The notes beneath the pieces were generated by a model. That model worked only from the letters and a program-made list of their open reading frames with translations, did no database searches and was not told the DNA's origin. Below, one piece after another: positions 46,496-64,000 of a stretch of DNA of 64,000 bases (positions are counted from its first letter, which is position 1; every line of letters begins with the position of its first letter). Position numbers and translations under genes: made by a program. The DNA comes from Moniliophthora roreri (taxonomy: Eukaryota; Basidiomycota; Agaricomycetes; Agaricales; Marasmiaceae): contig LATX02000215.1 of NCBI GenBank assembly GCA_001466705.2, positions 1 through 64,000 on the forward strand. Reading direction: 5' to 3'.

Positions 46496-48823
46496 GTATT
46501 CATGGGGTCTTGAATAAAACAACTAAGAGCGCTTGCACTCGAGAGGTACTTGCTGACTTGAATCAGAGCCATCAGTATCTAGCCTTCATGTGGAGTGTGT
46601 ATGTGGAAAGGGGGCTTTCATGATGGTTGTTGATGCAGCATGCAGGGAAAAATTGCATTCTTGAGTGACAGTAATGAGAAATAATATATTCTGGATATCT
46701 CTAATTGATTAACAGAAAAATTTCCAAAAGAATTGAGGCACACCTAGAACCTGAGCAGATGATGACAACCACCCCAGGCAATGTCGAGACTGTTCCAAAC
46801 AATGATGAGAGTCATGGGAGTCATGGTTGATTTTGTGGGACTGGTGTTGGTGACAAGTCACTGATGGCGCCGAGTGAACACCAGTCGTTGAGGCCATGTG
46901 ACGACTTGAGCAACTTGGTGAGTTGAGAGCAGGAGATATTGAGGTATTGAGGGTAAACGAGGGTGGTAAACATGTGCGAGGAAAAACCATGAAAAAAGCC
47001 ATTAATCAAGCAGCTGTCATAACATGTTTTGGCCCATTGATTGACAGATTTACATGGGAACCACAGGTGATGCAGCCAGGGTGCCACCAGAAGTCGAATG
47101 GATTGCATAGACAGAGTAGACCATCTGATCGTTAATTTGTCTAAGTTAGGACTAGTGGAAAACTACCCAAAAAGATAACCTCCAAAAGTCTAACTCAGTT
47201 GTTGTGCAAGTGTGGATCGACATGATCAGAGTTACCGCACTTAGAATGCCAACAAAACTCTTAGCTAGGTTGATTCTCTCTTATTGAAGTGTTCTACTTC
47301 ACAGTGTTCACCTCCAGAGGAGTATAGGTGGATTTAAAATGGGTTTATTGGGCAAACACACACACAAAACACAAAGAACGTGGTGCACAAAGCACAAACA
47401 CAAGAGCTACAGTTCCATACAAAGACTCAATAGCCGATATAGTCTGACCCTACAGAGTTCAAGACTTCTTCAAGATAACTACAGCACACAGTGTACTGGA
47501 AAAGGTCCTAGACCAATTTCTACAAAGAGCTCAGCACAGGCACACCCCTTGCTAAGACTCTAAGTGTGTCACAACCTGATACACACACAGGCCACACTCC
47601 AAGTGCCCAAGGCTCCTTCTTAGTGTAAAGTCTCTCTTAGAAAAGTGCTATAATGCACTCAAGATGTTACTCTTATCTCTTATGACGCAAGTTCATTATC
47701 AGATTTCTATCTCTCTGGAGTCACTCAGGACCAATCTCCAGGGCCTGTAGTGAGGAAGCAAAACTGGAATGGCACACAAATTTATACACCAAACAAACTT
47801 GTCATGTATTCACAATCGGAGGGGGCAGAGTTACTTGAGCATGTACAAATATCTAGCTGTCCTTATATATGGTCCAAGGAATATATCTGCAGAAAAATAT
47901 AAATAATGTCTGATAATTCAGGAAATGACAAATGAGTGACTGAGATACTAAAAGAGGGATTATTCGGATGTCATGGAGTCTGGCCATTAGGGTATCTACA
48001 TTTCCAGATGTTCTAGATTCTATAATTTGTATTTTCTCTTTTCTAAGTCAGGTATCTATGAGCGGATGATGGCTGTATCCATCCTGTCTTTTGACAGCAT
48101 TTCCCTTTTCTAGTATCTGCACATCAGCAGAGGCCTAGATGCCAAAGTTTCCAAGGTTGGGACACACTGTTATTGTTCCTATCTCCTTTGACAATGCACA
48201 CACAGTCTTATTTAGAATTTCTTGCATGTTAGATATTCTTCATATGTCTTATTGTATCTGTCTGTAGATAGTGGATGTCCTTCAGAAGTGATTTCTGTCT
48301 TTCCAAGCGGTCTTTGTACCTGGTTCACTTATCACATATTGTTTAGCCGCCAGTGAATTCTTTATTAAGAGATTGCCTGCTTTGACTCTGATCCATATAT
48401 TGACTTCAGAGGAGGATTGTTCTATGATTGTTCCTGTTCTAAGTCGTCTTTCTGTTTTGATGTCTCCTCTAAGTACCTCTGTACTGTTTGACTGCAGCTT
48501 GCACTTTGCAGATATCATAGAAAAGTAAAGTAGAAGTTAAAATCCCATTGATAGCACTTTTAAGAGCTTGGTTAACTAGCCAATGCGTTCATTGGGCCAT
48601 AGTTAGATTCCCTACAGGTTTCGGGAGTGATCCACTTTGGATCTGATACATAGATAGGTCAGAAAGTACAGCTTAGACACCTCTGTATAGCGTATCATAT
48701 AGCTCTTTGTACTTTCCCAGGTACCACAGCTTCTCTAAGGCAATGACTAGCAGACTGGGCTCACTCTAGTCCTTATTACCTGTTATCTCATGTCATATTA
48801 AAGTGTTCCAATTCAGAAATAGT
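46496..48823. repeat. contig-end duplicate, copy 1 of 2
   Basis: Identical to 48825-51152 over about 2.2 kb, with a few substitutions in the last 140 bp. It ends exactly at the N. Confidence 0.9.
47136..48560. repeat. 1.4 kb relic repeat family (second full copy 49465-50889)
   Basis: A diverged inverted copy occupies about 58859-59940. Shared landmarks: CTAAGTTAGGACTAGTGGAA, the GGTTGTGACACAC region and TGCCCCCTCTGATTGTGA on the inverted copy. No ORF or LTR ends identified. Confidence 0.6.
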
Positions 48824-48824
48824 N
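48824..48824. other. single-N contig join
   Basis: The 2.3 kb on its left repeats on its right. This is what two unmerged overlapping contigs look like. Confidence 0.9.
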
Positions 48825-51152
48825 GTATTCATGGGGTCTTGAATAAAACAACTAAGAGCGCTTGCACTCGAGAGGTACTTGCTGACTTGAATCAGAGCCA
48901 TCAGTATCTAGCCTTCATGTGGAGTGTGTATGTGGAAAGGGGGCTTTCATGATGGTTGTTGATGCAGCATGCAGGGAAAAATTGCATTCTTGAGTGACAG
49001 TAATGAGAAATAATATATTCTGGATATCTCTAATTGATTAACAGAAAAATTTCCAAAAGAATTGAGGCACACCTAGAACCTGAGCAGATGATGACAACCA
49101 CCCCAGGCAATGTCGAGACTGTTCCAAACAATGATGAGAGTCATGGGAGTCATGGTTGATTTTGTGGGACTGGTGTTGGTGACAAGTCACTGATGGCGCC
49201 GAGTGAACACCAGTCGTTGAGGCCATGTGACGACTTGAGCAACTTGGTGAGTTGAGAGCAGGAGATATTGAGGTATTGAGGGTAAACGAGGGTGGTAAAC
49301 ATGTGCGAGGAAAAACCATGAAAAAAGCCATTAATCAAGCAGCTGTCATAACATGTTTTGGCCCATTGATTGACAGATTTACATGGGAACCACAGGTGAT
49401 GCAGCCAGGGTGCCACCAGAAGTCGAATGGATTGCATAGACAGAGTAGACCATCTGATCGTTAATTTGTCTAAGTTAGGACTAGTGGAAAACTACCCAAA
49501 AAGATAACCTCCAAAAGTCTAACTCAGTTGTTGTGCAAGTGTGGATCGACATGATCAGAGTTACCGCACTTAGAATGCCAACAAAACTCTTAGCTAGGTT
49601 GATTCTCTCTTATTGAAGTGTTCTACTTCACAGTGTTCACCTCCAGAGGAGTATAGGTGGATTTAAAATGGGTTTATTGGGCAAACACACACACAAAACA
49701 CAAAGAACGTGGTGCACAAAGCACAAACACAAGAGCTACAGTTCCATACAAAGACTCAATAGCCGATATAGTCTGACCCTACAGAGTTCAAGACTTCTTC
49801 AAGATAACTACAGCACACAGTGTACTGGAAAAGGTCCTAGACCAATTTCTACAAAGAGCTCAGCACAGGCACACCCCTTGCTAAGACTCTAAGTGTGTCA
49901 CAACCTGATACACACACAGGCCACACTCCAAGTGCCCAAGGCTCCTTCTTAGTGTAAAGTCTCTCTTAGAAAAGTGCTATAATGCACTCAAGATGTTACT
50001 CTTATCTCTTATGACGCAAGTTCATTATCAGATTTCTATCTCTCTGGAGTCACTCAGGACCAATCTCCAGGGCCTGTAGTGAGGAAGCAAAACTGGAATG
50101 GCACACAAATTTATACACCAAACAAACTTGTCATGTATTCACAATCGGAGGGGGCAGAGTTACTTGAGCATGTACAAATATCTAGCTGTCCTTATATATG
50201 GTCCAAGGAATATATCTGCAGAAAAATATAAATAATGTCTGATAATTCAGGAAATGACAAATGAGTGACTGAGATACTAAAAGAGGGATTATTCGGATGT
50301 CATGGAGTCTGGCCATTAGGGTATCTACATTTCCAGATGTTCTAGATTCTATAATTTGTATTTTCTCTTTTCTAAGTCAGGTATCTATGAGCGGATGATG
50401 GCTGTATCCATCCTGTCTTTTGACAGCATTTCCCTTTTCTAGTATCTGCACATCAGCAGAGGCCTAGATGCCAAAGTTTCCAAGGTTGGGACACACTGTT
50501 ATTGTTCCTATCTCCTTTGACAATGCACACACAGTCTTATTTAGAATTTCTTGCATGTTAGATATTCTTCATATGTCTTATTGTATCTGTCTGTAGATAG
50601 TGGATGTCCTTCAGAAGTGATTTCTGTCTTTCCAAGCGGTCTTTGTACCTGGTTCACTTATCACATATTGTTTAGCCGCCAGTGAATTCTTTATTAAGAG
50701 ATTGCCTGCTTTGACTCTGATCCATATATTGACTTCAGAGGAGGATTGTTCTATGATTGTTCCTGTTCTAAGTCGTCTTTCTGTTTTGATGTCTCCTCTA
50801 AGTACCTCTGTACTGTTTGACTGCAGCTTGCACTTTGCAGATATCATAGAAAAGTAAAGTAGAAGTTAAAATCCCATTGATAGCACTTTTAAGAGCTTGG
50901 TTAACTAGCCAATGCGTTCATTGGGCCATAGTTAGATTCCCTACAGGTTTCGGGAGTGATCCACTTTGGATCTGATACATAGATAGGTCAGAAAGTACAG
51001 CTTAGACACCTCTGTATAGCATATCATATAGCTCTTCATACTTTCTAAAGTACCACAGCTTCTCTAAGGCAATAACTAGCAGACTGGGTTCACTCTAGTC
51101 CTTATTACCTGTTATCTCATGTCATATTAAAGTGTTCCAATTCAGAAATAGT
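48825..51152. repeat. contig-end duplicate, copy 2 of 2
   Basis: Same sequence as 46496-48823 and continuing beyond it. CpG-poor, no genes. Confidence 0.9.
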
Positions 51153-51978
51153 GTAAAATGAATAAAAGTGGGTCTTTTCTAGGTTCAACATATTATCGTG
51201 TTCCCTGGAACAGGTCGCGAATGGCATCTGAGGATGTACAAAGAAAATTGCACTGACACTGTTGCTGACTGTCACTTACATGTGTCACTTACAGGCTGAG
51301 TCGCTACCTACATAGTATCTAATTAGTACTGAAGCCAAATGATACCTGTAAGCATTGAACTTTGAACTTCAAAATGAACTATTCATATATGCATATTATA
51401 CTACAGTAACACTATATAGCACAGGACACAGGATGGTAAGATTTTCACCTCCATCGCTGACAGAGTCACTGACTGTCAGTGACAGTGTCGCCAACTGTCG
51501 CTGATAATGTACATGATGCACCCTGGCTCTAACCTGCACAAGACCCACCTCTCACCTCCAATTGCTTATCATTGCCTATGACGCCCCTGACAGCATGTCA
51601 CGTTGTGTCCTGTACCTCTCTCCTACACCTCTCACCCATGCCTCTCCCTCACATCTCACACCTGCACCTCTGACACTGCCATCCAGTGCATATGCCTGGA
51701 TAATAATTGTGCCAATAGCAATATGAATCTGGTCAAAAAATTTATCAGCATTACAAGGATGACAATGAGTGTAGACAAAGCATACCAAAGACTCTTCAGA
51801 GCCTAACCTGCTACTGCTAGCAACTCTAAAGTACAGAAGAATCAGTAAAATTCTTTGGAGTTTTCAGCAATCTTACCGATACTGGGCATTGTGTATGGAA
51901 AGAAAAAATATCAACAATAGTGGGCAGTACTGATGAGAGAAATTAGAGTTTCAGCTTCACCTGAGCAACTGTTAATAC

Positions 51979-52019
51979 GGTTGCCCATCAGGCTTAGGCA
52001 GGATTTTCGATGGGCAACC
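51979..52019. repeat. 11 bp inverted repeat (hairpin)
   Basis: GGTTGCCCATC and GATGGGCAACC with a 19 nt loop. Repeated at 53903-53943 in the duplicate. A third half-site is near 52218. Possibly a MITE end. Confidence 0.4.
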
Positions 52020-52498
52020 AAGTAATGTGTAATAATGTCATATGTAGATTATATTGGTCAGTCCTCTCGACTATTTTTTCCAAATATTGTCCTTATTCCC
52101 CCTTATGTTTCCAGATATTTTGGTTGGGCATTCATCAACATAGATGACAGTGGACTCCCAGAAGGCATGGAACTTGCCATTTGTCATAACAAACAGACTG
52201 TGCTGGCCACTTTCACAGTTGCCCATTAGGCTCAGGCCACCACCTGCTAGATATGACATTATTCCACATTTTGTCTCTGGAGCCAGCAGCGACCTAGGCC
52301 TGTGACAAGCCCCTACATGACGAGCAAACTGAGTACTAAGGGGCCTGTTGAGCTGGGTTTAAATTGGCTGGAGACATTTTAGGGATTTGCTGAACCTCAA
52401 ACATTCCTTTTTGGGATTCAGTGTGTCAAATGTGATGACACCATTGCAAGCCCAATTTCCTTTTGACAGTGAATTTTTCGAGCTCTTTGGACTATACA

Positions 52499-52520
52499 GC
52501 GACTAAAATACACAAATATG
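52499..52520. other. 22 nt block that is the direct complement of 54423-54444
   Basis: See findings. Flanking bases are identical in the two copies and the length is unchanged. Confidence 0.9.
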
Positions 52521-52579
52521 TTTAGGATTGATACATGCACTCTTCTATTAACCTGTAGATGTAGAATTCAGACCCCAAA

Positions 52580-52646
52580 TGTTACGTTACTTGCGCAGCA
52601 ACGTCAACTTCAACTAGCTTCAATGAAAAGTCTCTTCCGTTAAAGT
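52580..52646 (-). repeat. LTR fragment cut by contig join
   Basis: First 67 bp of an LTR (TGTTACGTTACTTGCGCAGC) that continues in the duplicate at 54504-54795. Confidence 0.85.
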
Positions 52647-52647
52647 N
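52647..52647. other. single-N contig join
   Basis: Left 1.9 kb repeats on the right from 52648. Confidence 0.9.
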
Positions 52648-54570
52648 ATATATTGACTTCAGAGGAGGATTGTTCTATGATTGTTCCTGTTCTAAGTCGT
52701 CTTTCTGTTTTGATGTCTCCTCTAAGTACCTCTGTACTGTTTGACTGCAGCTTGCACTTTGCAGATATCATAGAAAAGTAAAGTAGAAGTTAAAATCCCA
52801 TTGATAGCACTTTTAAGAGCTTGGTTAACTAGCCAATGCGTTCATTGGGCCATAGTTAGATTCCCTACAGGTTTCGGGAGTGATCCACTTTGGATCTGAT
52901 ACATAGATAGGTCAGAAAGTACAGCTTAGACACCTCTGTATAGCATATCATATAGCTCTTCATACTTTCTAAAGTACCACAGCTTCTCTAAGGCAATAAC
53001 TAGCAGACTGGGTTCACTCTAGTCCTTATTACCTGTTATCTCATGTCATATTAAAGTGTTCCAATTCAGAAATAGTGTAAAATGAATAAAAGTGGGTCTT
53101 TTCTAGGTTCAACATATTATCGTGTTCCCTGGAACAGGTCGCGAATGGCATCTGAGGATGTACAAAGAAAATTGCACTGACACTGTTGCTGACTGTCACT
53201 TACATGTGTCACTTACAGGCTGAGTCGCTACCTACATAGTATCTAATTAGTACTGAAGCCAAATGATACCTGTAAGCATTGAACTTTGAACTTCAAAATG
53301 AACTATTCATATATGCATATTATACTACAGTAACACTATATAGCACAGGACACAGGATGGTAAGATTTTCACCTCCATCGCTGACAGAGTCACTGACTGT
53401 CAGTGACAGTGTCGCCAACTGTCGCTGATAATGTACATGATGCACCCTGGCTCTAACCTGCACAAGACCCACCTCTCACCTCCAATTGCTTATCATTGCC
53501 TATGACGCCCCTGACAGCATGTCACGTTGTGTCCTGTACCTCTCTCCTACACCTCTCACCCATGCCTCTCCCTCACATCTCACACCTGCACCTCTGACAC
53601 TGCCATCCAGTGCATATGCCTGGATAATAATTGTGCCAATAGCAATATGAATCTGGTCAAAAAATTTATCAGCATTACAAGGATGACAATGAGTGTAGAC
53701 AAAGCATACCAAAGACTCTTCAGAGCCTAACCTGCTACTGCTAGCAACTCTAAAGTACAGAAGAATCAGTAAAATTCTTTGGAGTTTTCAGCAATCTTAC
53801 CGATACTGGGCATTGTGTATGGAAAGAAAAAATATCAACAATAGTGGGCAGTACTGATGAGAGAAATTAGAGTTTCAGCTTCACCTGAGCAACTGTTAAT
53901 ACGGTTGCCCATCAGGCTTAGGCAGGATTTTCGATGGGCAACCAAGTAATGTGTAATAATGTCATATGTAGATTATATTGGTCAGTCCTCTCGACTATTT
54001 TTTCCAAATATTGTCCTTATTCCCCCTTATGTTTCCAGATATTTTGGTTGGGCATTCATCAACATAGATGACAGTGGACTCCCAGAAGGCATGGAACTTG
54101 CCATTTGTCATAACAAACAGACTGTGCTGGCCACTTTCACAGTTGCCCATTAGGCTCAGGCCACCACCTGCTAGATATGACATTATTCCACATTTTGTCT
54201 CTGGAGCCAGCAGCGACCTAGGCCTGTGACAAGCCCCTACATGACGAGCAAACTGAGTACTAAGGGGCCTGTTGAGCTGGGTTTAAATTGGCTGGAGACA
54301 TTTTAGGGATTTGCTGAACCTCAAACATTCCTTTTTGGGATTCAGTGTGTCAAATGTGATGACACCATTGCAAGCCCAATTTCCTTTTGACAGTGAATTT
54401 TTCGAGCTCTTTGGACTATACACGCTGATTTTATGTGTTTATACTTTAGGATTGATACATGCACTCTTCTATTAACCTGTAGATGTAGAATTCAGACCCC
54501 AAATGTTACGTTACTTGCGCAGCAACGTCAACTTCAACTAGCTTCAATGAAAAGTCTCTTCCGTTAAAGT
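52648..54570. repeat. second contig-end duplicate, copy 2
   Basis: See 50724-52646. Continues into the LTR at 54504. Confidence 0.9.
54423..54444. other. 22 nt block that is the direct complement of 52499-52520
   Basis: See findings. Confidence 0.9.
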
Positions 54571-55321: not shown

Positions 55322-56371
55322 CTACGATTCTCTGTCTCCGTACAGTTCTGCATCGTAATCATACGATGTGTCAGGTCTGTAGTCGTCGTCCGGCATCTCG
55401 TCTACGGCTCCCAACCGCGGAGTTGCTGGTACTTCCGAGGGCGGTTGCCACCCCATAGCTAGCCGTTCCTCAACTGTCAACAACCTCACCTTTTTTGGAT
55501 CCGCTCCTACAAACAGCAGCTGAGCGTCCCGATCGTATTCCTCCATCAACGACTCAACATTCTCCGCCGAGGTTGTCGTAGGGCTCGTCATTGTACCACC
55601 GTTCATCGTCATAACGGCGACCATCCGACAAAGAGTCTGAGCTCGAATGAGGCCGTCGACGCGCAATGCGGCGAGACCTTCGTTGGTCAGGGCAGTTGCT
55701 AGACGTATGTCCAGGTTGAGTCGTGAAGCATCGACGACACATGTACTGCGGGCAATCTCGGGCGAAATGGCGCTCCAATCCGCACACAGGGCAGAGACGC
55801 GGTCGATGAGCTGCATCATCGGGGTCGGGGCCGGAGTCGGACTTCGCAAGCTGACCGTCGGTAGGTCGTCGTCTTTTTCGGGGGTTTGATTCTCCGTTTC
55901 GTCGTCCTCGGCCTCGCCCCCTGATTCCTCGGGAGCGACCTCCCCTCCCACCGCGGGGATGTGTTCCACTGTCAGGTGGAACTGAGGCTTCAGGTGTCTG
56001 AAGACTTCTGGGGTCAACGGCCGTTGAAGGCCCGGGCTGGGAATCTGGGAGGGAGTCGACGGACTCGACCTTAGGTTTGACGTCGGGATCGGGAGTGGAG
56101 TCAGGATAAACGAGGGTGTCGGGAAATTCGGGGGAGGCACTGGCAGCGGGGGAGATTCGGGGTTCGGAGGTGAGCCTGGAGATGAGGCTACGAGTGTCGT
56201 TGATGTCGGGACGGGGGTAGCCGTTGCCGTCGGTTCGTCTTCCGAGTCGGTCGAGGAGGCTGAAGGAGAGGGGATCAGGGTATTCCGACATCGCTCTGGG
56301 ATCTGCGGGAGGGGGCATGGACAAATGGGGGTGATAACGAAACGTGGACGGTACCGTAACGGGCCCTTCAA
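55322..56371 (-). CDS. element 2 ORF B, overlaps ORF A in the +1 frame
   Basis: 349 codons, no stops. N-terminal 130 residues Pro/Ser/Thr-rich, then EVFRHLKPQFHLTVEHIPAV, an acidic stretch (EAEDDETENQTPEKDDD), and a predicted helical region SALCADWSAISPEIARSTCV ... LATALTNEGLAALRVDGLI. The last 77 residues (55322-55553) lie beyond ORF A: DAQLLFVGADPKKVRLLTVE, then MGWQPPSEVP, and an acidic Asp/Tyr tail. 818 bp are shared with ORF A in another frame. Element 1 keeps the same register and the same helical region. Function unknown; it could be the C-terminal part of an ORF A frameshift product. Confidence 0.65.
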   Translation of the reverse strand: MKGPLRYRPRFVITPICPCPLPQIPERCRNTLIPSPSASSTDSEDEPTATATPVPTSTTLVASSPGSPPNPESPPLPVPPPNFPTPSFILTPLPIPTSNLRSSPSTPSQIPSPGLQRPLTPEVFRHLKPQFHLTVEHIPAVGGEVAPEESGGEAEDDETENQTPEKDDDLPTVSLRSPTPAPTPMMQLIDRVSALCADWSAISPEIARSTCVVDASRLNLDIRLATALTNEGLAALRVDGLIRAQTLCRMVAVMTMNGGTMTSPTTTSAENVESLMEEYDRDAQLLFVGADPKKVRLLTVEERLAMGWQPPSEVPATPRLGAVDEMPDDDYRPDTSYDYDAELYGDRES

Positions 56372-56717
56372 GCCCTATTTGGTAGTTACAGGCGTACATC
56401 ACCTGGTTCGCAATCTCGAGACTGCAGCTTTCAACGATTCTTTCGAATAGCTTTCGTTGACCCCTGAGGAAAAAGAGGCTTTTGACGCAGGGTTCCAATC
56501 GGTTGTGCTGATTAGCGGCGTTTCGGATTTGATCGTCATACTGCCCGGTATTGAAGAGATGAAGGAGTTGGTAGGGGTTGGGTCTGAGGCCGTTGGGGTA
56601 GGTGATATTTTCGCCATATCGTCCTTCTCCCGACACAGTAGGAACAGGGCTCGAGATTCGGGCTGGCTGGCTGCCAGTAAGAGAAGAGGAAGAGGCGGCG
56701 GAGGATGCATCGGACAT
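55554..56717 (-). CDS. element 2 ORF A, Arg/Gly-rich double zinc-knuckle protein
   Basis: 387 residues. ATG at 56717 follows the pol stop (TAA, 56723-56721) after one codon, in the pol frame. Residues about 45-140 hold a conserved region (NPYQLLHLFNTGQYDDQIRN, SLFFLRGQRKLFERIVESC). After a Ser/Pro linker containing DVKPKVE comes an RG-rich segment (RGGRGGRSRGIRGRGRGRR). Two knuckles follow: CPVCGLERHFARDC (CX2CX4HX4C) and CRRCFTTQPGHTSSNC (CX2CX6HX4C). RNA or single-stranded DNA binding is likely, making it Gag- or nucleocapsid-like although it sits after pol. It could be expressed by readthrough of the pol stop or by reinitiation. Confidence 0.75.
   Translation of the reverse strand: MSDASSAASSSSLTGSQPARISSPVPTVSGEGRYGENITYPNGLRPNPYQLLHLFNTGQYDDQIRNAANQHNRLEPCVKSLFFLRGQRKLFERIVESCSLEIANQVMYACNYQIGLEGPVTVPSTFRYHPHLSMPPPADPRAMSEYPDPLSFSLLDRLGRRTDGNGYPRPDINDTRSLISRLTSEPRISPAASASPEFPDTLVYPDSTPDPDVKPKVESVDSLPDSQPGPSTAVDPRSLQTPEASVPPDSGTHPRGGRGGRSRGIRGRGRGRRNGESNPRKRRRPTDGQLAKSDSGPDPDDAAHRPRLCPVCGLERHFARDCPQYMCRRCFTTQPGHTSSNCPDQRRSRRIARRRPHSSSDSLSDGRRYDDERWYNDEPYDNLGGEC
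56086..56114. other. 29 nt block whose direct complement is at 62921-62949
   Basis: In ORF A/B of element 2 this block keeps both frames open; the counterpart in element 3 is the anomalous one. See findings. Confidence 0.85.
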
Positions 56718-56720
56718 GTT

Positions 56721-58857
56721 TTACGAAGGTTGAGCTGGTATGGGGTCTTTGGGCTTCAACTTGTGTCTTTTTATATAATCCTTAAGAAGGTCTAGACAGT
56801 TCTCCATTCCCTCCATGCGGATCCATCGGTTATGGGATGAATCATAACCCGTGTACGACACAAGGAATTCTCGGGGTCTCTTCTTCGGTCTATGCCCGGT
56901 TATTGCGTCGACCTCGTATTCCTCGAACCCTTCTATAAGGTCCGGGGGTGGTTCCGTAAAACTGGGTCCGTGGGCCTCGGTCTGTTTGTATGGTGACAAT
57001 AGGGCCGCGTGGAACACAGGGTGGATTTTCCACTGATGGGGTAAATCTAGTCTGTACGTCACGGGTCCAAGTACCTCGAGGATTGCGAATGGTCCTTCCC
57101 TTTTCGGGGCTAGTTTCTTTGACGGGTACCCAATGGCTAGATTCTTGGCTTCTAACCAAACCTTTTGTCCCTTCTCGAATACATCAAGCTTCTGTTTTTC
57201 CCTCCTTATCATGTGTTGTCTTGCCAACTCCAGTAGGCTCGTGGTTTCTTCTCGTACTCTCTTTAGTTCCTGTAATCTTTCTTCTATTGACGGAATATTT
57301 GTTCTTTCGAACACCGTTGGAAGTGGTCGAGGGTGATATCCCATCATCATGAAGAATGGTGATTTCTTAAGGACTGAATGTGTTCGATTATTGTGAGCGA
57401 ATTCTGCCAACGAAAGATATTCCTTCCATCGGGTTTGCTCTTTTGCGCAGAACATCCTGAGGTAGACTTCGAGTTCTCTGTTTACTCGCTCGGTTTCTCC
57501 ATCAGTTTGCGGGTGGAATGCTGTGCTCATCGAGTGTTTGATGGAAAGTTGTTTCCCCATTTCCTGGAATACTTCCGCGGCGAATCTGGGGTCTCGATCG
57601 GATATGATTCGGTCAGGTAGTCCGAATCTTTTGTACAGATGTTGAATTAACATTTCCGCGATCTTCGTAGCATCCGTCGTTTTTGTGCATGGAGTAAAAA
57701 TTACCCCCTTCGTAGACGAGTGGTCCACCACGACTAAAATAGAATCCATGCCATCACATTCGGGAAGGTCGGTAATGAGGTCCATTGTGCAGACCTGAAA
57801 GGGGAAGGAATTCTGGGGTGCTTGTATTGGTTGTAATGGAGTTCGTGTCGGATGCGTAATAATTTTGGACTGCTGGCACGTGGCGCAGCCGTCAACGAAG
57901 CTCTTGATGAATTTGACCATTCCTGGCCACCAGAAGTCACGTTGTACTTGCTCAGTAGTATTCCACTGCCCTGGATGTCCTACTCCTGGTGTCTCGTGGA
58001 TTGACTGGACTATTCGTCGTCGGAGGTCTGTGTCATTCGGGACATATACGCGATTCTGGAAGAAGAGTAAATCGTTCTCAATCTTCCAATCCGATAGCGC
58101 GGATTTGATTGGCGGCACGCCTTGGTGTAGTAATTGTTCCAAAGCCGATTTATGAAAATCGTCCGGGCCCAACCGCTCCACTATATCGTCCTTCAATTCC
58201 AAGTTGATGCTTCTGACGAAGAATCGATCTGGCAGGACTATTACGTCCTCATTGTCGTTATCAATCTCGTCTGCTTCGTTACTTCGTCTTGACAAAGCGT
58301 CTGCTTGTGAAATGGACTTTCCCGGCACATGTACTAGTCCTAAGTCGAATTCGGATAGGAAGAGACTCCATCTTGCCTGTCGTCTGTTCAATTTTTGCGC
58401 CGTTCGGAAGTACGTTAGATTTTTGTGATCCGAAAGGATGACGACCTTAAACTTCCCTCCCATAAGGTAGTGGCGCCATTCCATGAGTGCTCTGTAAATA
58501 GCAAGGAGTTCTCGATCGTAGATTTCGTAATTCCGTTCGGCCGGGGAGAACGACTTTGACAAGTATCCACATGGGTGCCACTCGCCATCCACTCCTTTCT
58601 GCCTAAGGACGGCACCCGTAGCCCATTTCGAAGCATCGGCTTCTATAACAAAAGGTTTATCGACGTCCGGCATGACCAGTATGGGTTCTAATAGAAACTT
58701 TGCTTTTAAGAGATCAAATGCTATCTGGCACTGTGACGTCCATTCGAATTTTCGGTTCTTTTGTAGAAGGTCGTTCAGAGGTCTAGTGACGTGTGCATAT
58801 TTCCCTATGAACTTCCTGTAGAAATTCCCGAAGCCCAAGAACGCGCGAACTCCCTTT
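56721..58857 (-). CDS. element 2 pol (partial): RT thumb, RNase H, integrase, chromodomain
   Basis: Open for about 712 codons from the N at 58858 to TAA 56721. In order: connection of reverse transcriptase (RAFLGFGNFYRKFIGKYA), RNase H ([29 protein letters not shown]), DALSRR, integrase zinc domain (HETPGVGHPGQW...CATC), catalytic core with the Asp of CTMDLITDLP, the Asp of ISDRDPRF and the Glu of RVNRELEVYL. Then the GPFAILEVLGPVTYRLDLP module and a chromodomain (EEYEVDAITGHRPKKRPREF, SYTGYDSSHNRW). All catalytic residues visible here are present. The chromodomain is expected to guide integration to modified chromatin. The palm of reverse transcriptase, protease and gag are cut off by the contig end. 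Confidence 0.9.
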
Positions 58858-58858
58858 N
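58858..58858. other. single-N contig join inside pol
   Basis: Left: pol of element 2. Right: unrelated CpG-poor relic repeat. The join is a scaffold step, not a natural junction. Confidence 0.9.
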
Positions 58859-61631
58859 TAAAGAGTGCACCAGCAGCTAAACAATACAAGATCAACTAGC
58901 TAGGTACAAAGTCATCTCGGAAAGAAGGAAATCACTTCTGAAGGACATCTCCTACCTACGGACAGCTACAACAAGACCTAGAAGAATATCTAACGCATAA
59001 GCAGTTCTAAATAAGACTGAGTGTGCATTGTTGAAGGAGATAGAAACAGTAACAGTGTGTTCTGACCTTGGAAACTTTGGCATCTAGGCTTCTGCAGATG
59101 TGCAGATACTAGAAAGGGAAATGCTGTAAAGAGACAGAATGGATACAGCCATCCACTTGTAGATACCCAACTTAGAAAAAGAGAAAATACAAATTATAGA
59201 GTCCAGAATGCCTGGAGACATAGATACCCATGCAGATATGGTCAGATACCCTGGTGGCCAGACTCTGTGACATCTGAATATTCCCTCTTTTAGTATCTCA
59301 GTCACTCATTTATCATTTCCTGAATTATCAGACATTATTTATATTTTTCTGTAGATATATTCCTTGGATGGTATATAAGGACCACTAGATATTCATAGAT
59401 ATTCAAGTAACTCTGCCCCCTCTGATTGTGAAATACATGAAGAGTTTGTTTGGTGTATAAAGTTGTGTGCCATTCCAGTTTTGCTTCCTCACTTCAAGCC
59501 CTGGAGATGGAGTGTGGCCTGTGTTGGGTATCAGGTTGTGACACACTTAGTCTTAGCAAGGGGTGTGCCTGTGCTGAGCTCTTTGTAGAAATTGGTCTAG
59601 GACCTTTTCCAGTATACTGTGTGCTGTAGTTGTCTTAAGAAAGTCTTGAACTCCATAGGGTCAGGCTATATCAGCTATTGAGTCTTTGTATGGGACTGTA
59701 GCTCTTGTTTTTGTGCTTTGTGCACCATGTTCTTTGTGTTTTATATACTCCTCTGGAGGTGAACACCTTGAAGTAGATTGCTTCAATAAGAGAGAATCAA
59801 CCTAGCTAAGAGTTTTGTTGGCATTCTAAGTGCAGTAACTCTGATCATGCTGATCCACACTTGCACAACAACCTGAGTTAGACTTTTGGAGGTTATCTTT
59901 TGGGTAGTTTTCCACTAGTCCTATCTTAGACAAATTAACGCACCATTGGATCATAATCCTGCTTCACCATGAACAGTTCTTGTCATATGTGGCACAAATC
60001 TAAGTCAGACAAACTGGTTATCAGCATTCCAATGTCAATGAGAACATTACTACCATATACCATCTTTTTTCCCCCCTTATAAAGTGCGAACTCTATACCA
60101 CAACTGTGACCTTCAGACTCCAAATGAGACTTCTATATCCTGAGAACATTACTGTTAGTCTCTGCAACATCTTCATGGACTTAAGATACATACCTTTATT
60201 CTGAATTTAGACCATCTGGCATTCTTGAACTCAAAAGCAGAACTTTAGAAGAGAGACAAGCTGGAGGGGTGATAATGGTTAGGGAAAAGAATTTGCTCAG
60301 CCAGGCTTCTCAATATAACTTGAAAGCAGATAGCAGATAGCAGGTAACTCAACAATTGGTTGCTCAACCTGCCTACTGACTGCTGCCTACTAACTGCCAT
60401 CCACTTGACATCGTACATGTCCCTTGGCTCAGTAGTAGCCGACTCATCCAGGACTCATCTGAATCAAGAGATATCTGTTGATTACCAAATTTCCCATGAA
60501 TTCTGACTAGATTGTCTATGGCCACATTTTGATAGTGTTTTGGCTCACACTTAACATTCTACCCAAATCAGTTTGTTAACATAGAGAGAACACACTGAGT
60601 CCAACCAAGACTATAGCAGTTCTGAAAGCGAAGTCAATTTTATCCAAGTAAAATGTAAGAACTTACACATGGGCCTCAGCTAAAGCAGAAGGATATAAGT
60701 AAAAGCACCTAGAGTTAAGTCAAAGATCACAGATCTAGGTGAGAGCAGCTCAAAGTGAAGTTCGCTGTTTTGCTAATGCGCTTGCCTGGCACATAAGACT
60801 TGAGCATGCTTGACATACATTGAGATCAAGTGTTCACACTGAAGGACAAAGGTATGAGCCATATAATTGAATATATTACTTTACTAGTCAGCTAATTACA
60901 TATGTGCCCAAGGCTCTGACAAGTGTATGTACTCTGAATGCTTTCAGTGCACATCATTTTATTTCTATCCATCATTGTATTTCTGCATGTTGGTCTGTTT
61001 CTATGCTTCTGGGGGTACAGAGGTGGTCAAGGCAAGCCAAAGAGAAACTAGATATTAAGAAAGGGGCTGGGAAGAGAGTTGATGGGATGGTCTGTTATGT
61101 GAGATGAACATTTCCCAGATCATCATCATCCCTTGCTCAAAAAAGTATCAATTGCTACTGGAGCTTGAAGAGCCTTTTTTGAGAGGGTGCTGTCGAAAAA
61201 AGGAGGTTAATCATGACCATAGAGGGAAAAAGAGCCAGCTCAACAATCTGCTGGTACTGCACACTGGCAACCAGAAGCATGATCTTGGCATCAAGTCAAA
61301 ACAGAGGGCAACACTGGTTTTATTTAATGATGATTGCCCTATAAAATACACTTCAACTTCAACAGTATCACTAGAGTACTTCCAGCCATTGCCTCGAGAT
61401 ATCTGATGGCAACCAACAGTGTCACAGAAAACAGTGGTCACACCCTGATGCAGGTAAGTTCCATTATCATGCATCTCTGTGGGAACCTTATGAATCCAAA
61501 AGTCCAAACAGACTGACAATGGAAACAGAACCAGCACCCTCTCACATCTTTGACACTCTGCAATAGGCAATGATGCCCAATGAGATGTTACTGGACATTA
61601 TCAGACAGCATCAGATGTTATCAGACAAATA
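58859..61631. other. CpG-poor relic block with inverted copy of the 1.4 kb repeat
   Basis: 58859-59940 matches 47136-48530 in reverse complement with clear divergence. The rest has short ORFs without support. CG is rare. Confidence 0.6.
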
Positions 61632-61662
61632 CATGAAAATCTGACATGCACCTGACATTTTC

Positions 61663-62115
61663 TGTTACGTTACTTGCGTAGCAACGTTAACTTCTACTAA
61701 CTTCAACAGAGAATCCCCTCCGTCAAAGTAGTATTCAAGTTCAAGTTTGAGTTCGTTCAGCGGTTGCTGAAGTTCAGAGATCCTTCGATAGGCGTTGACA
61801 CAAGTATAAGATAAACCAGGTCAAGCTGGAGACTCAGAGTCTCAGCTTGAGCGCTTAAATACGTTACAACCAGACTTGTACTAACTATATACGAATAGCC
61901 GACGAAGTCGGTAATTGTCTAAAGTCCCGAGGCAGTCGGGATATGAGTAATATCGTACAAAGGGATAGGTAAATGGGGAAGAGGAAGGGTGGAAGAGTCC
62001 GGAAGCAGTGAGAAGCATGGATGCGAGAAGGAAAAGGGGGCTGGGAAAGTGGATAAGTCCGAGGGTAATGAGAAGCATAGGTAGTACTACAGAAGAGAAA
62101 AGAAAGTTCGTAACA
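61663..62115 (-). repeat. 3' LTR of element 3 (453 bp)
   Basis: No difference from 54828-55280 seen. Confidence 0.95.
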
Positions 62116-62156
62116 TTACCCCCTCAACAAGGGGTAAACTCCGCTTTAACCACCAC

Positions 62157-62852
62157 CTACGATTCTCTGTCTCCGTACAGTTCTGCATCGTAATCATACG
62201 ATGTGTCAGGTCTGTAGTCGTCGTCCGGCATCTCGTCTACGGCTCCCAACCGCGGAGTTGCTGGTACTTCCGAGGGCGGTTGCCACCCCATAGCTAGCCG
62301 TTCCTCAACTGTCAACAACCTCACCTTTTTTGGATCCGCTCCTACAAACAGCAGCTGAGCGTCCCGATCGTATTCCTCCATCAACGACTCAACATTCTCC
62401 GCCGAGGTTGTCGTAGGGCTCGTCATTGTACCACCGTTCATCGTCATAACGGCGACCATCCGACAAAGAGTCTGAGCTCGAATGAGGCCGTCGACGCGCA
62501 ATGCGGCGAGACCTTCGTTGGTCAGGGCAGTTGCTAGACGTATGTCCAGGTTGAGTTGTGAAGCATCGACGACACATGTACTGCGGGCAATTTCGGGCGA
62601 AATGGCGCTCCAGTCCGCACACAGGGCAGAGACGCGGTCGACGAGCTGCATCATCGGGGTCTGGGCCGGAGTCGGACTTCTCAAGCTGACCTTCGGTAGG
62701 TCGTCGTCGTTTTCGGGGGTTTGATTCTCCGTTTCGTCGTCCTCGGCCTCGTCCTCTGATGCCTCGGGAGCGACCTCCCCTCCCACCGCGGGGATGTGTT
62801 CCACTGTCAGGCGGAACTGAGGCTTCAGGTGTCTGAAGACTTCGGGGGTCAA
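62157..62852 (-). CDS. element 3 ORF B, C-terminal 231 codons
   Basis: Same frame and end as ORF B of element 2 (MQLVDRVSALCADWSAISPE, LTVEERLAMGWQPPSEV). It is cut upstream because the 29 nt anomalous block at 62921-62949 and a 50 bp deletion near 63137 change the frames. Still open across the region that overlaps the knuckles. Confidence 0.55.
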   Translation of the reverse strand: MTPEVFRHLKPQFRLTVEHIPAVGGEVAPEASEDEAEDDETENQTPENDDDLPKVSLRSPTPAQTPMMQLVDRVSALCADWSAISPEIARSTCVVDASQLNLDIRLATALTNEGLAALRVDGLIRAQTLCRMVAVMTMNGGTMTSPTTTSAENVESLMEEYDRDAQLLFVGADPKKVRLLTVEERLAMGWQPPSEVPATPRLGAVDEMPDDDYRPDTSYDYDAELYGDRES

Positions 62853-63500
62853 TGGCCGTTGAGGGCCCGGGCTGGGAATCTGTGAGGGAGTCGACGGACT
62901 CGACCTTAGGTTTGACGTCGCCTAGCCCTCACCCCAGTCCTATTTGCTCGGTGTCGGGAAATTCGGGGGAGGCACCGGCAGCGGGGAGGATTCGGGGTTC
63001 AGAGGTGAGTCTGGAGACGAGGCTACGAGTGTCGTTGATGTCGGGACGGGGGCAACCGTTGCCGTCGGTTCGTCTTCCGAGTCGGTCAAGGAGGCTGAAG
63101 GAGAGGGGATCAGGGTATTCTGACATCACTCTGGGATCGTGACAGGACCTTCCAGTCCTAACTGGTAGTTACAGGTGTACATCACCTGGTTTGCAATCTC
63201 GAGACTGCAGCTTTCAACGATTCTTTCGAATAATTTTCGTTGACCCCTGAGGAAAAACAGGCTTTTGACGCAGGGTTCCAGTCGGTTGTGTTGATCAGCG
63301 GCGTTCCGGATTTGATCGTCGTACTGCCCGGTATTGAAGAGATGAAGGAGTTGGTAGGGGTTGGGTTTGAGGCTGTTGGGGTAGGTGATGTTTTCGCCGT
63401 ATTGTCCTTCTCCCGACACAGTAGGAACAGGGCTCGCGACTCGGGCTGGCTGGCTGCCAGTAAGAGAAGAGGAAGAGGCGGCGGAGGATGCATTGGACAT
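62389..63500 (-). pseudogene. element 3 ORF A, disrupted
   Basis: N-terminal part 63126-63500 (RPARVASPVP-like start, NPYQLLHLFNTGQYDDQIRN, FLRGQRKLFERIVESC) and the knuckle part 62389-62622 (GLERHFARNC, CRRCFTTQPGHTSSNC) are clear. Between them about 50 bp are missing near 63137, and the block 62921-62949 introduces a TAG. ATG 63500 follows a TGA pol stop after one codon. Confidence 0.7.
62921..62949. other. 29 nt direct-complement block (28 of 29 positions)
   Basis: See findings; compare 56086-56114. Confidence 0.85.
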
Positions 63501-63503
63501 GTT

Positions 63504-64000
63504 TCACGAAGGTTGAACTGGTATGGGGTCCTTGGGCTTCAACTTGTGCTTCTTTATATAGTCTTTAAGAAGGTCTAGACAGTTCTCCATTCCCTCCATA
63601 TGGATCCATCGGTTATGGGATGAATCATAGCCCGTGTATGACACAAGGAATTCCCGGAGTCTCTTCTTCGGTCTATGCCCGGTTATTGCGTCAACTTCGT
63701 ATTCTTCAAACCCTTCTATGAGGTCCGGGGGTGGTTCCGTAAAACTGGGTCCGTGGGCATCGGTCTGTTTGTATGGTGACAATAGTGCTGCGTGGAATAC
63801 GGGGTGGATTTTCCACTGATGGGGTAGATCTAGTTTGTACGTTACGGGCCCAAGTACCTCGAGGATTGCAAACGGTCCTTCCCTTTTCGGGGCTAGTTTC
63901 TTTGACGGGTACCCAGTGGCTAGATTCTTGGCTTCTAACCAGACCTTTTGTCCTTTCTCGAATACATCCAACTTCTGTTTCTCCCTCCTTATCATGTGCT
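63504..64000 (-). CDS. element 3 pol, C-terminal part (partial)
   Basis: Integrase C-terminal module ([39 protein letters not shown]) and chromodomain (EEYEVDAITGHRPKKRLREF, SYTGYDSSHNRW), ending with a TGA stop at 63504-63506. Continues beyond the window. Confidence 0.85.
   Translation of the reverse strand, partial: HMIRREKQKLDVFEKGQKVWLEAKNLATGYPSKKLAPKREGPFAILEVLGPVTYKLDLPHQWKIHPVFHAALLSPYKQTDAHGPSFTEPPPDLIEGFEEYEVDAITGHRPKKRLREFLVSYTGYDSSHNRWIHMEGMENCLDLLKDYIKKHKLKPKDPIPVQPS

Follow-up and report, generated by a model that had tools for sequence, protein, structure and literature searches.

How does a short stretch of a genome come to be spelled in the complementary letters of a related copy, with the order of those letters kept? 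Such a stretch of 29 nt lies in an LTR retrotransposon of Moniliophthora roreri, and the question is whether it belongs to the organism or to the handling of its sequence. The window—the whole stretch of DNA analysed, 64,000 nucleotides long—covers positions 1–64,000 of contig LATX02000215.1 (C114:1-64000), in an assembly of 154 contigs and 59,427,881 bases in total. We call letters that are complemented with their order kept a same-order complement, and name five blocks of this kind: B1 (29 nt) and B2 (22 nt) in the window, B3 (55 nt) and B4 (21 nt) on C90, and B5 (55 nt) on C30.

Five short blocks are same-order complements of ordinary copies

The earlier note had described 62921–62949 (B1), in element 3, as the complement of 56086–56114, in element 2, at 28 of 29 positions. 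Direct comparison returned the same count, with identity at 0/29, reversal at 3/29 and the reverse complement at 7/29, while the flanks matched on the same diagonal at 39/40 and 37/40 positions. At least 28 matches out of 29 have a probability of 3e-16 by chance in a single comparison, in keeping with the note's dismissal of a chance match. The note had paired elements 2 and 3 as redundant contig copies. Redundancy there is, but with a different partner: elements 2 and 3 are separate copies (~97% identical), and the redundant counterpart of element 3 is C114:64304–65875. Here, just beyond the window, C114:64494–64522 (L009:4494–4522) complements B1 at 29/29 positions, with flanks matching at 40/40 on either side. 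B1 and this closer partner sit in a 1572-nt overlap, in which the end of the left contig (62731–64302) is repeated as the start of the next one across a single N at C114:64303, with 0 substitutions and 0 gaps outside the block. The lone mismatch between B1 and 56086–56114 reflects normal divergence of element 3 from element 2 and is separate from the change itself.

The claim that element 3 carries the altered version was borne out by counting: a search of the whole assembly with the B1 29-mer (up to three mismatches) found 159 ordinary occurrences (74 + 85) against one in complement form, at 62921. The host is an LTR retrotransposon, with RNase H, integrase and chromo domains (Pfam) in a neighbouring frame and an LTR-end sequence in about 790 places. 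As the note had it, two frames of element 2 run open across the block stretch (Table 1); its single TAG in element 3 has to be amended, as B1 holds two TAG codons in one frame and a TGA in the other. Both frames are open where element 3 is assembled a second time (64494).

The second case that had been pointed out in the window also stands: B2 equals the complement of 52499–52520 at 22/22 positions, and the 1923-nt overlap around it, at the single N 52647, contains 0 substitutions and 0 gaps outside the 22-nt block. Since a further copy in L033 exactly matches the form of 52499–52520, and one in L032 does so with one difference, 54423–54444 is the altered B2 copy.

Table 1 Features of the window around blocks B1 and B2.
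Feature	Position	Strand	Evidence
Left member of the 1923-nt end-to-start overlap of B2	50724..52646	+	0 substitutions, 0 gaps outside block
Ordinary B2 form	52499..52520	.	22/22; L033, L032
Single N, contig join between the two B2 copies	52647..52647	.	Letters
Right member of the 1923-nt overlap of B2	52648..54570	+	Overlap alignment
B2, altered block, 22-nt same-order complement	54423..54444	.	22/22 vs 52499-52520; L033, L032
Element 2 ORF A, 349 aa, open through the B1 stretch, no Pfam family	55322..56371	-	ORF + Pfam
Element 2 ORF B, 387 aa, open through the B1 stretch, no Pfam family	55554..56717	-	ORF + Pfam
Ordinary B1 form in element 2, one letter off most copies	56086..56114	.	Sequence comparison
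Element 2 partial pol frame: RNase H-like, integrase, chromo	56721..58856	-	RT_RNaseH 2.5e-37, Integrase_H2C2 9e-19, rve 2.5e-08, Chromo 2e-07
Single N opening the contig of B1 (58859-64302); next N at C114:64303	58858..58858	.	Letters
Left contig end repeated as next contig start (outside B1)	62731..64000 (overlap to 64302)	+	1572 nt, 0 substitutions, 0 gaps
B1, altered block, 29-nt same-order complement	62921..62949	.	28/29 vs 56086-56114, 29/29 vs C114:64494-64522, 1 vs 159 copies

Three of the five blocks lie outside the window. At the join at C90:51849, a 1935-nt overlap differs between its two sides by one transition and by two blocks, B3 and B4. In the case of B4, the right-hand version is the one shared by copies on C67 and C151 (C151 contributes two, from either side of a single identical overlap). 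For B3, alteration of the right-hand copy was considered and dropped after comparison with other LTRs and a count in the whole assembly: the LTR-end block that B3 and B5 represent is present in its complement form twice (C90 and C30), against 790 ordinary occurrences (371 + 419). We read this second figure off a search control, for which the pattern was run backwards and so spelled the opposite strand of the ordinary form; applied to B1, this way of counting gave a result in agreement with the direct search. The altered copies of B3 and B4 both belong to contig C90:47147–51848, the single case of joint alteration of blocks within one contig. B5 (C30:41391–41445, against C147:9202–9256) has identical flanks over 889 letters: to the left these extend for 47 nt, where the C147 contig starts, and to the right for 842 nt, after which C30 and C147 diverge.

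B3 (C90:50070–50124) and B5 share both borders, one of which falls exactly at the LTR terminus, at unlinked insertion sites. Each block complements its own local version, and the two differ at 2/55 positions. The common borders suggest that sequence content helps to set them; the cause is perhaps reads without unique placement in a piece of about 790 copies. Three further conserved sites of the element showed the complement form in 0/152, 0/284 and 0/35 copies (ordinary counts from the control).

Four of the five blocks lie in unmerged contig overlaps

We counted 34 runs of N, each of length one, in the non-repeated part of the fetched sequence (292,000 bases). An end-to-start overlap was present at 17 of these 34 joins, and at nine it was at least 99.7% identical outside the blocks; three of the nine overlaps contain B1–B4 and six are without a block. 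These frequencies describe regions picked around element copies, in part where paired matches hinted at overlaps, and are not genome-wide rates. Four of the five blocks lie inside end-to-start overlaps at single-N joins, B5 being outside any of them, and the ordinary and the altered version of one stretch coexist in the assembly (in the overlaps of 1572, 1923 and 1935 nt, and on C147 and C30). This supports the proposal of the earlier note that a systematic process is tied to redundant contig copies. Its further idea, a clustering near contig ends, is borne out in part: in the left copy of each overlap, the distance from block to contig end is between 126 and 1724 nt.

Repeated contig ends are a feature of the assembly in their own right. 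Ends of 987 to 2844 nt recur exactly or almost exactly across single Ns, at 46496–54570 of the window, at C114:62731–65875 and on C90, C151, C24, C5, C125 and C25 (L021, L029, L036, L037, L038, L030), and some sequence is counted twice. That the blocks had prevented the merging of overlaps was considered and rejected, as four letter-identical overlaps (L029, L036, L037, L038) are unmerged all the same. Across the N at 48824, an overlap of 2328 nt has eight differences (seven transitions and one transversion), all of them within 69 nt near the contig end, 48692–48760 of the window against 51021–51089. On C85, around 683225 (L028:6225), a 2999-nt end-to-start overlap at a single N is ~93% identical, and 141 of its 193 differences are transitions; this contrasts with the haploidy reported for isolates of the species in part of PMC10468315. 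We attributed a 5-nt 'block' in the same overlap to chance and did not count it among the five.

Complementation is the only base exchange found

We scanned 271,100 fetched bases for in-place blocks of at least 12 nt under all 23 base exchanges. For 22 of the 23 rules the result was zero; the complement rule alone gave blocks, in 54 pairs, in which the same few blocks are compared repeatedly. A scan of the fetched sequence for in-place reversals or reverse complements of at least 16 nt, in which seeds with more than 60 matches were skipped, returned none. When a 1350-nt query was searched for in complement form only, B3 and B5 were recovered and the 29-nt B1 was missed, which shows this search to be insensitive to short blocks.

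The blocks probably stem from a half-executed reverse complement

Some kind of data-processing origin is very probable for the blocks, which are real in the deposited record and likely not in the organism. The specific reading that we favour, and consider probable, is a reverse complement that was half executed when a contig was flipped: a stretch was reversed and left uncomplemented. The stretch would have been stored on the opposite strand, and the flip of its contig would then have reversed it without complementing, giving the deposited letters. It may have escaped complementing because something in the input set it off from its flanks, lower-case letters being the simplest such mark; these could be, for instance, bases that a polisher left without read evidence and that met a reverse-complement routine written for capitals only. 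The flip itself may be the work of the same scaffolder that inserted the single Ns. We put the lower-case route in particular at an even chance.

In agreement with such a half-executed flip, the altered letters are the ordinary letters of the opposite strand, reversed and uncomplemented, with length and flanks kept. We simulated a capitals-only flip by taking the ordinary stretch on the opposite strand, lower-casing the block, reversing the whole and complementing the capitals. This reproduced B1, B2, B3 and B4 exactly (in pieces of 1572, 1923, 447 and 1535 nt), a result that is one of sufficiency only: it follows arithmetically from the blocks being complements, and gives no preference to lower case over other causes. 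The fetched sequence is in capitals throughout and carries no case information. Further support comes from the overlaps, which are identical apart from the blocks, from the altered forms being near-singletons (1 vs 159 and 2 vs 790, with none at the three further conserved sites), and from the scans, in which the complement was the sole exchange recovered and in-place reversals and inversions were missing. Moreover, isolates of M. roreri are reported to be haploid in the part of PMC10468315 that concerns them, and two versions of one stretch are therefore unexpected as alleles.

Other observations speak against a flip error of this kind. The borders shared by B3 and B5, with the LTR terminus among them, are not expected from random marking and are not fully explained; B5 is outside a single-N end-to-start overlap, and the blocks are not confined to low-coverage tips. 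Low-complexity masking was tried as the marker and rejected, as a DUST-like score was not extreme in the four blocks scored (the share of window stretches scoring as high was 0.36 for B1, 0.22 for B2, 0.10 for B3 and 0.76 for B4). No second placement of an altered contig in reverse orientation, which would have put the flip to the test, appeared among the 40 candidates scored in each of three lists.

Tools with the relevant properties exist. As far as the passages on methods in PMC10468315 go, other M. roreri assemblies came from haploid isolates, were assembled with Falcon and polished with Arrow, and SSPACE-LongRead scaffolding was used for one isolate. An option of Arrow writes bases without evidence in lower case, according to a passage of PMC7756384, and lower-case bases left by PacBio polishing are mentioned in PMC4053942; SSPACE-LongRead is described in PMC4076250, in the portion concerned, as a scaffolder written in Perl whose gaps consist of one or more N. 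By analogy with those other assemblies, Arrow and SSPACE-LongRead may be candidate tools for the present one. Identical overlaps are left unmerged here, unlike what the corresponding description in PMC10468315 states, which counts against naming SSPACE-LongRead. Among the papers listed in a literature search, judged on titles, the openings of abstracts and a few passages, we recognised no published description of such an error.

Alternative origins of the blocks

Among the alternatives, a different software fault survives best, although we regard it as unlikely. A consensus, gap-filling or graph step might have spelled out a half-converted segment of the wrong strand, independently of letter case and of scaffolding. 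The same letters would be expected, and the flip simulation does not separate the two. A segment defined by its sequence, such as a graph node or a piece of a repeat, would fit the common borders of B3 and B5 at the LTR end, and B5 is not in a single-N overlap. The location of four of the five blocks at unmerged single-N overlaps points instead to contigs handled as units, with the proviso that the search was made mainly there.

Very improbable, by comparison, is a real molecular process, in which a polymerase or repair would write the same-order complement into transposon DNA ('swinger' replication, A<->T + C<->G). No polymerase known to us copies a strand in parallel. To judge from parts of PMC4942731, the published description does share the exchange rule and the abruptness of the borders, and two LTR ends carry the same block borders. 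Against this, every altered stretch is matched by an ordinary counterpart, identical apart from the block, that lies either beyond a join or on a separate contig, in a species reported as haploid in part of PMC10468315; one altered copy faces 159 ordinary ones in one case and two face 790 in the other; and the remaining 22 exchange rules are absent from 271,100 bases. We find it just as hard to credit a sequence-guided process that turns short pieces of LTR retrotransposons into same-order complements, to which the common borders at two unlinked insertions might point; if real, it would be a nuclear-genome case of strand identity swapped without reversal.

It is similarly improbable that the window alone was changed after deposition: the oddness of the blocks, and nothing more, speaks for this, and blocks of the same kind are found on C90 and C30. 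Ordinary mutation—a micro-inversion, a reversal, or divergence aligned by chance—has a negligible probability, for while small inversions are a known type of mutation and elements 2 and 3 diverge by ~3%, B1 matches as a reverse complement at 7/29 and as a reversal at 3/29 positions, chance stands at 3e-16, the scans for in-place inversions and reversals were without any match, and the 1572-nt overlap is otherwise identical.

Relation to known phenomena and consequences

Each of three known phenomena shares part of the pattern. Micro-inversions are likewise short and length-preserving and leave the flanks unchanged, but yield a reverse complement, whereas the M. roreri blocks keep the letter order (reverse complement at 7/29 for B1). 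Unmerged end-to-start overlaps in scaffolded assemblies also have single-N joins flanked by one and the same sequence, yet do not by themselves bring complement blocks, as 6/9 such overlaps have none. The closest likeness is to swinger DNA, for example the 16S rDNA in the Kamimuria wangi mitogenome record, described in passages of PMC4942731 and PMC7027195, which is also a same-order complement with abrupt borders in sequence that is ordinary elsewhere and is read by its author as the outcome of altered polymerisation. Swinger DNA is reported only under A<->T + C<->G, for a reason that is unknown according to the author, Seligmann, in the relevant part of PMC4942731; the sole rule in DNA there is thus the sole rule found here. 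Compared by description, the M. roreri blocks differ from the swinger reading offered in those passages: for each of them the assembly also contains the ordinary version in otherwise unchanged sequence, past a contig join or on a different contig. A partner of this kind points to software.

The preferred half-executed reverse complement would yield A<->T + C<->G and no other rule, this being the sole exchange that sequence software routinely carries out. If it is the true origin, it would give 'swinger DNA' a plain explanation open to testing. Some assemblies would then contain wrong letters over stretches of unaltered length, which a standard alignment takes for divergence; frame length would be kept, and predicted proteins would acquire short wrong patches or stops. 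The finding is probably of low importance as biology, and of moderate importance as a type of assembly error that bears on published claims.

Elsewhere on the same contig, C114:90001–150000 (L012, L016, L017) contains several long open frames that are alike by eye. An F-box protein encoded on C114 matches WG66_006684 of M. roreri with 100% identity across 94% of the query. The L017 frame that we searched has an F-box domain (PF12937 in the top match), and its relatives are mainly from Moniliophthora and other Marasmiaceae-like fungi.
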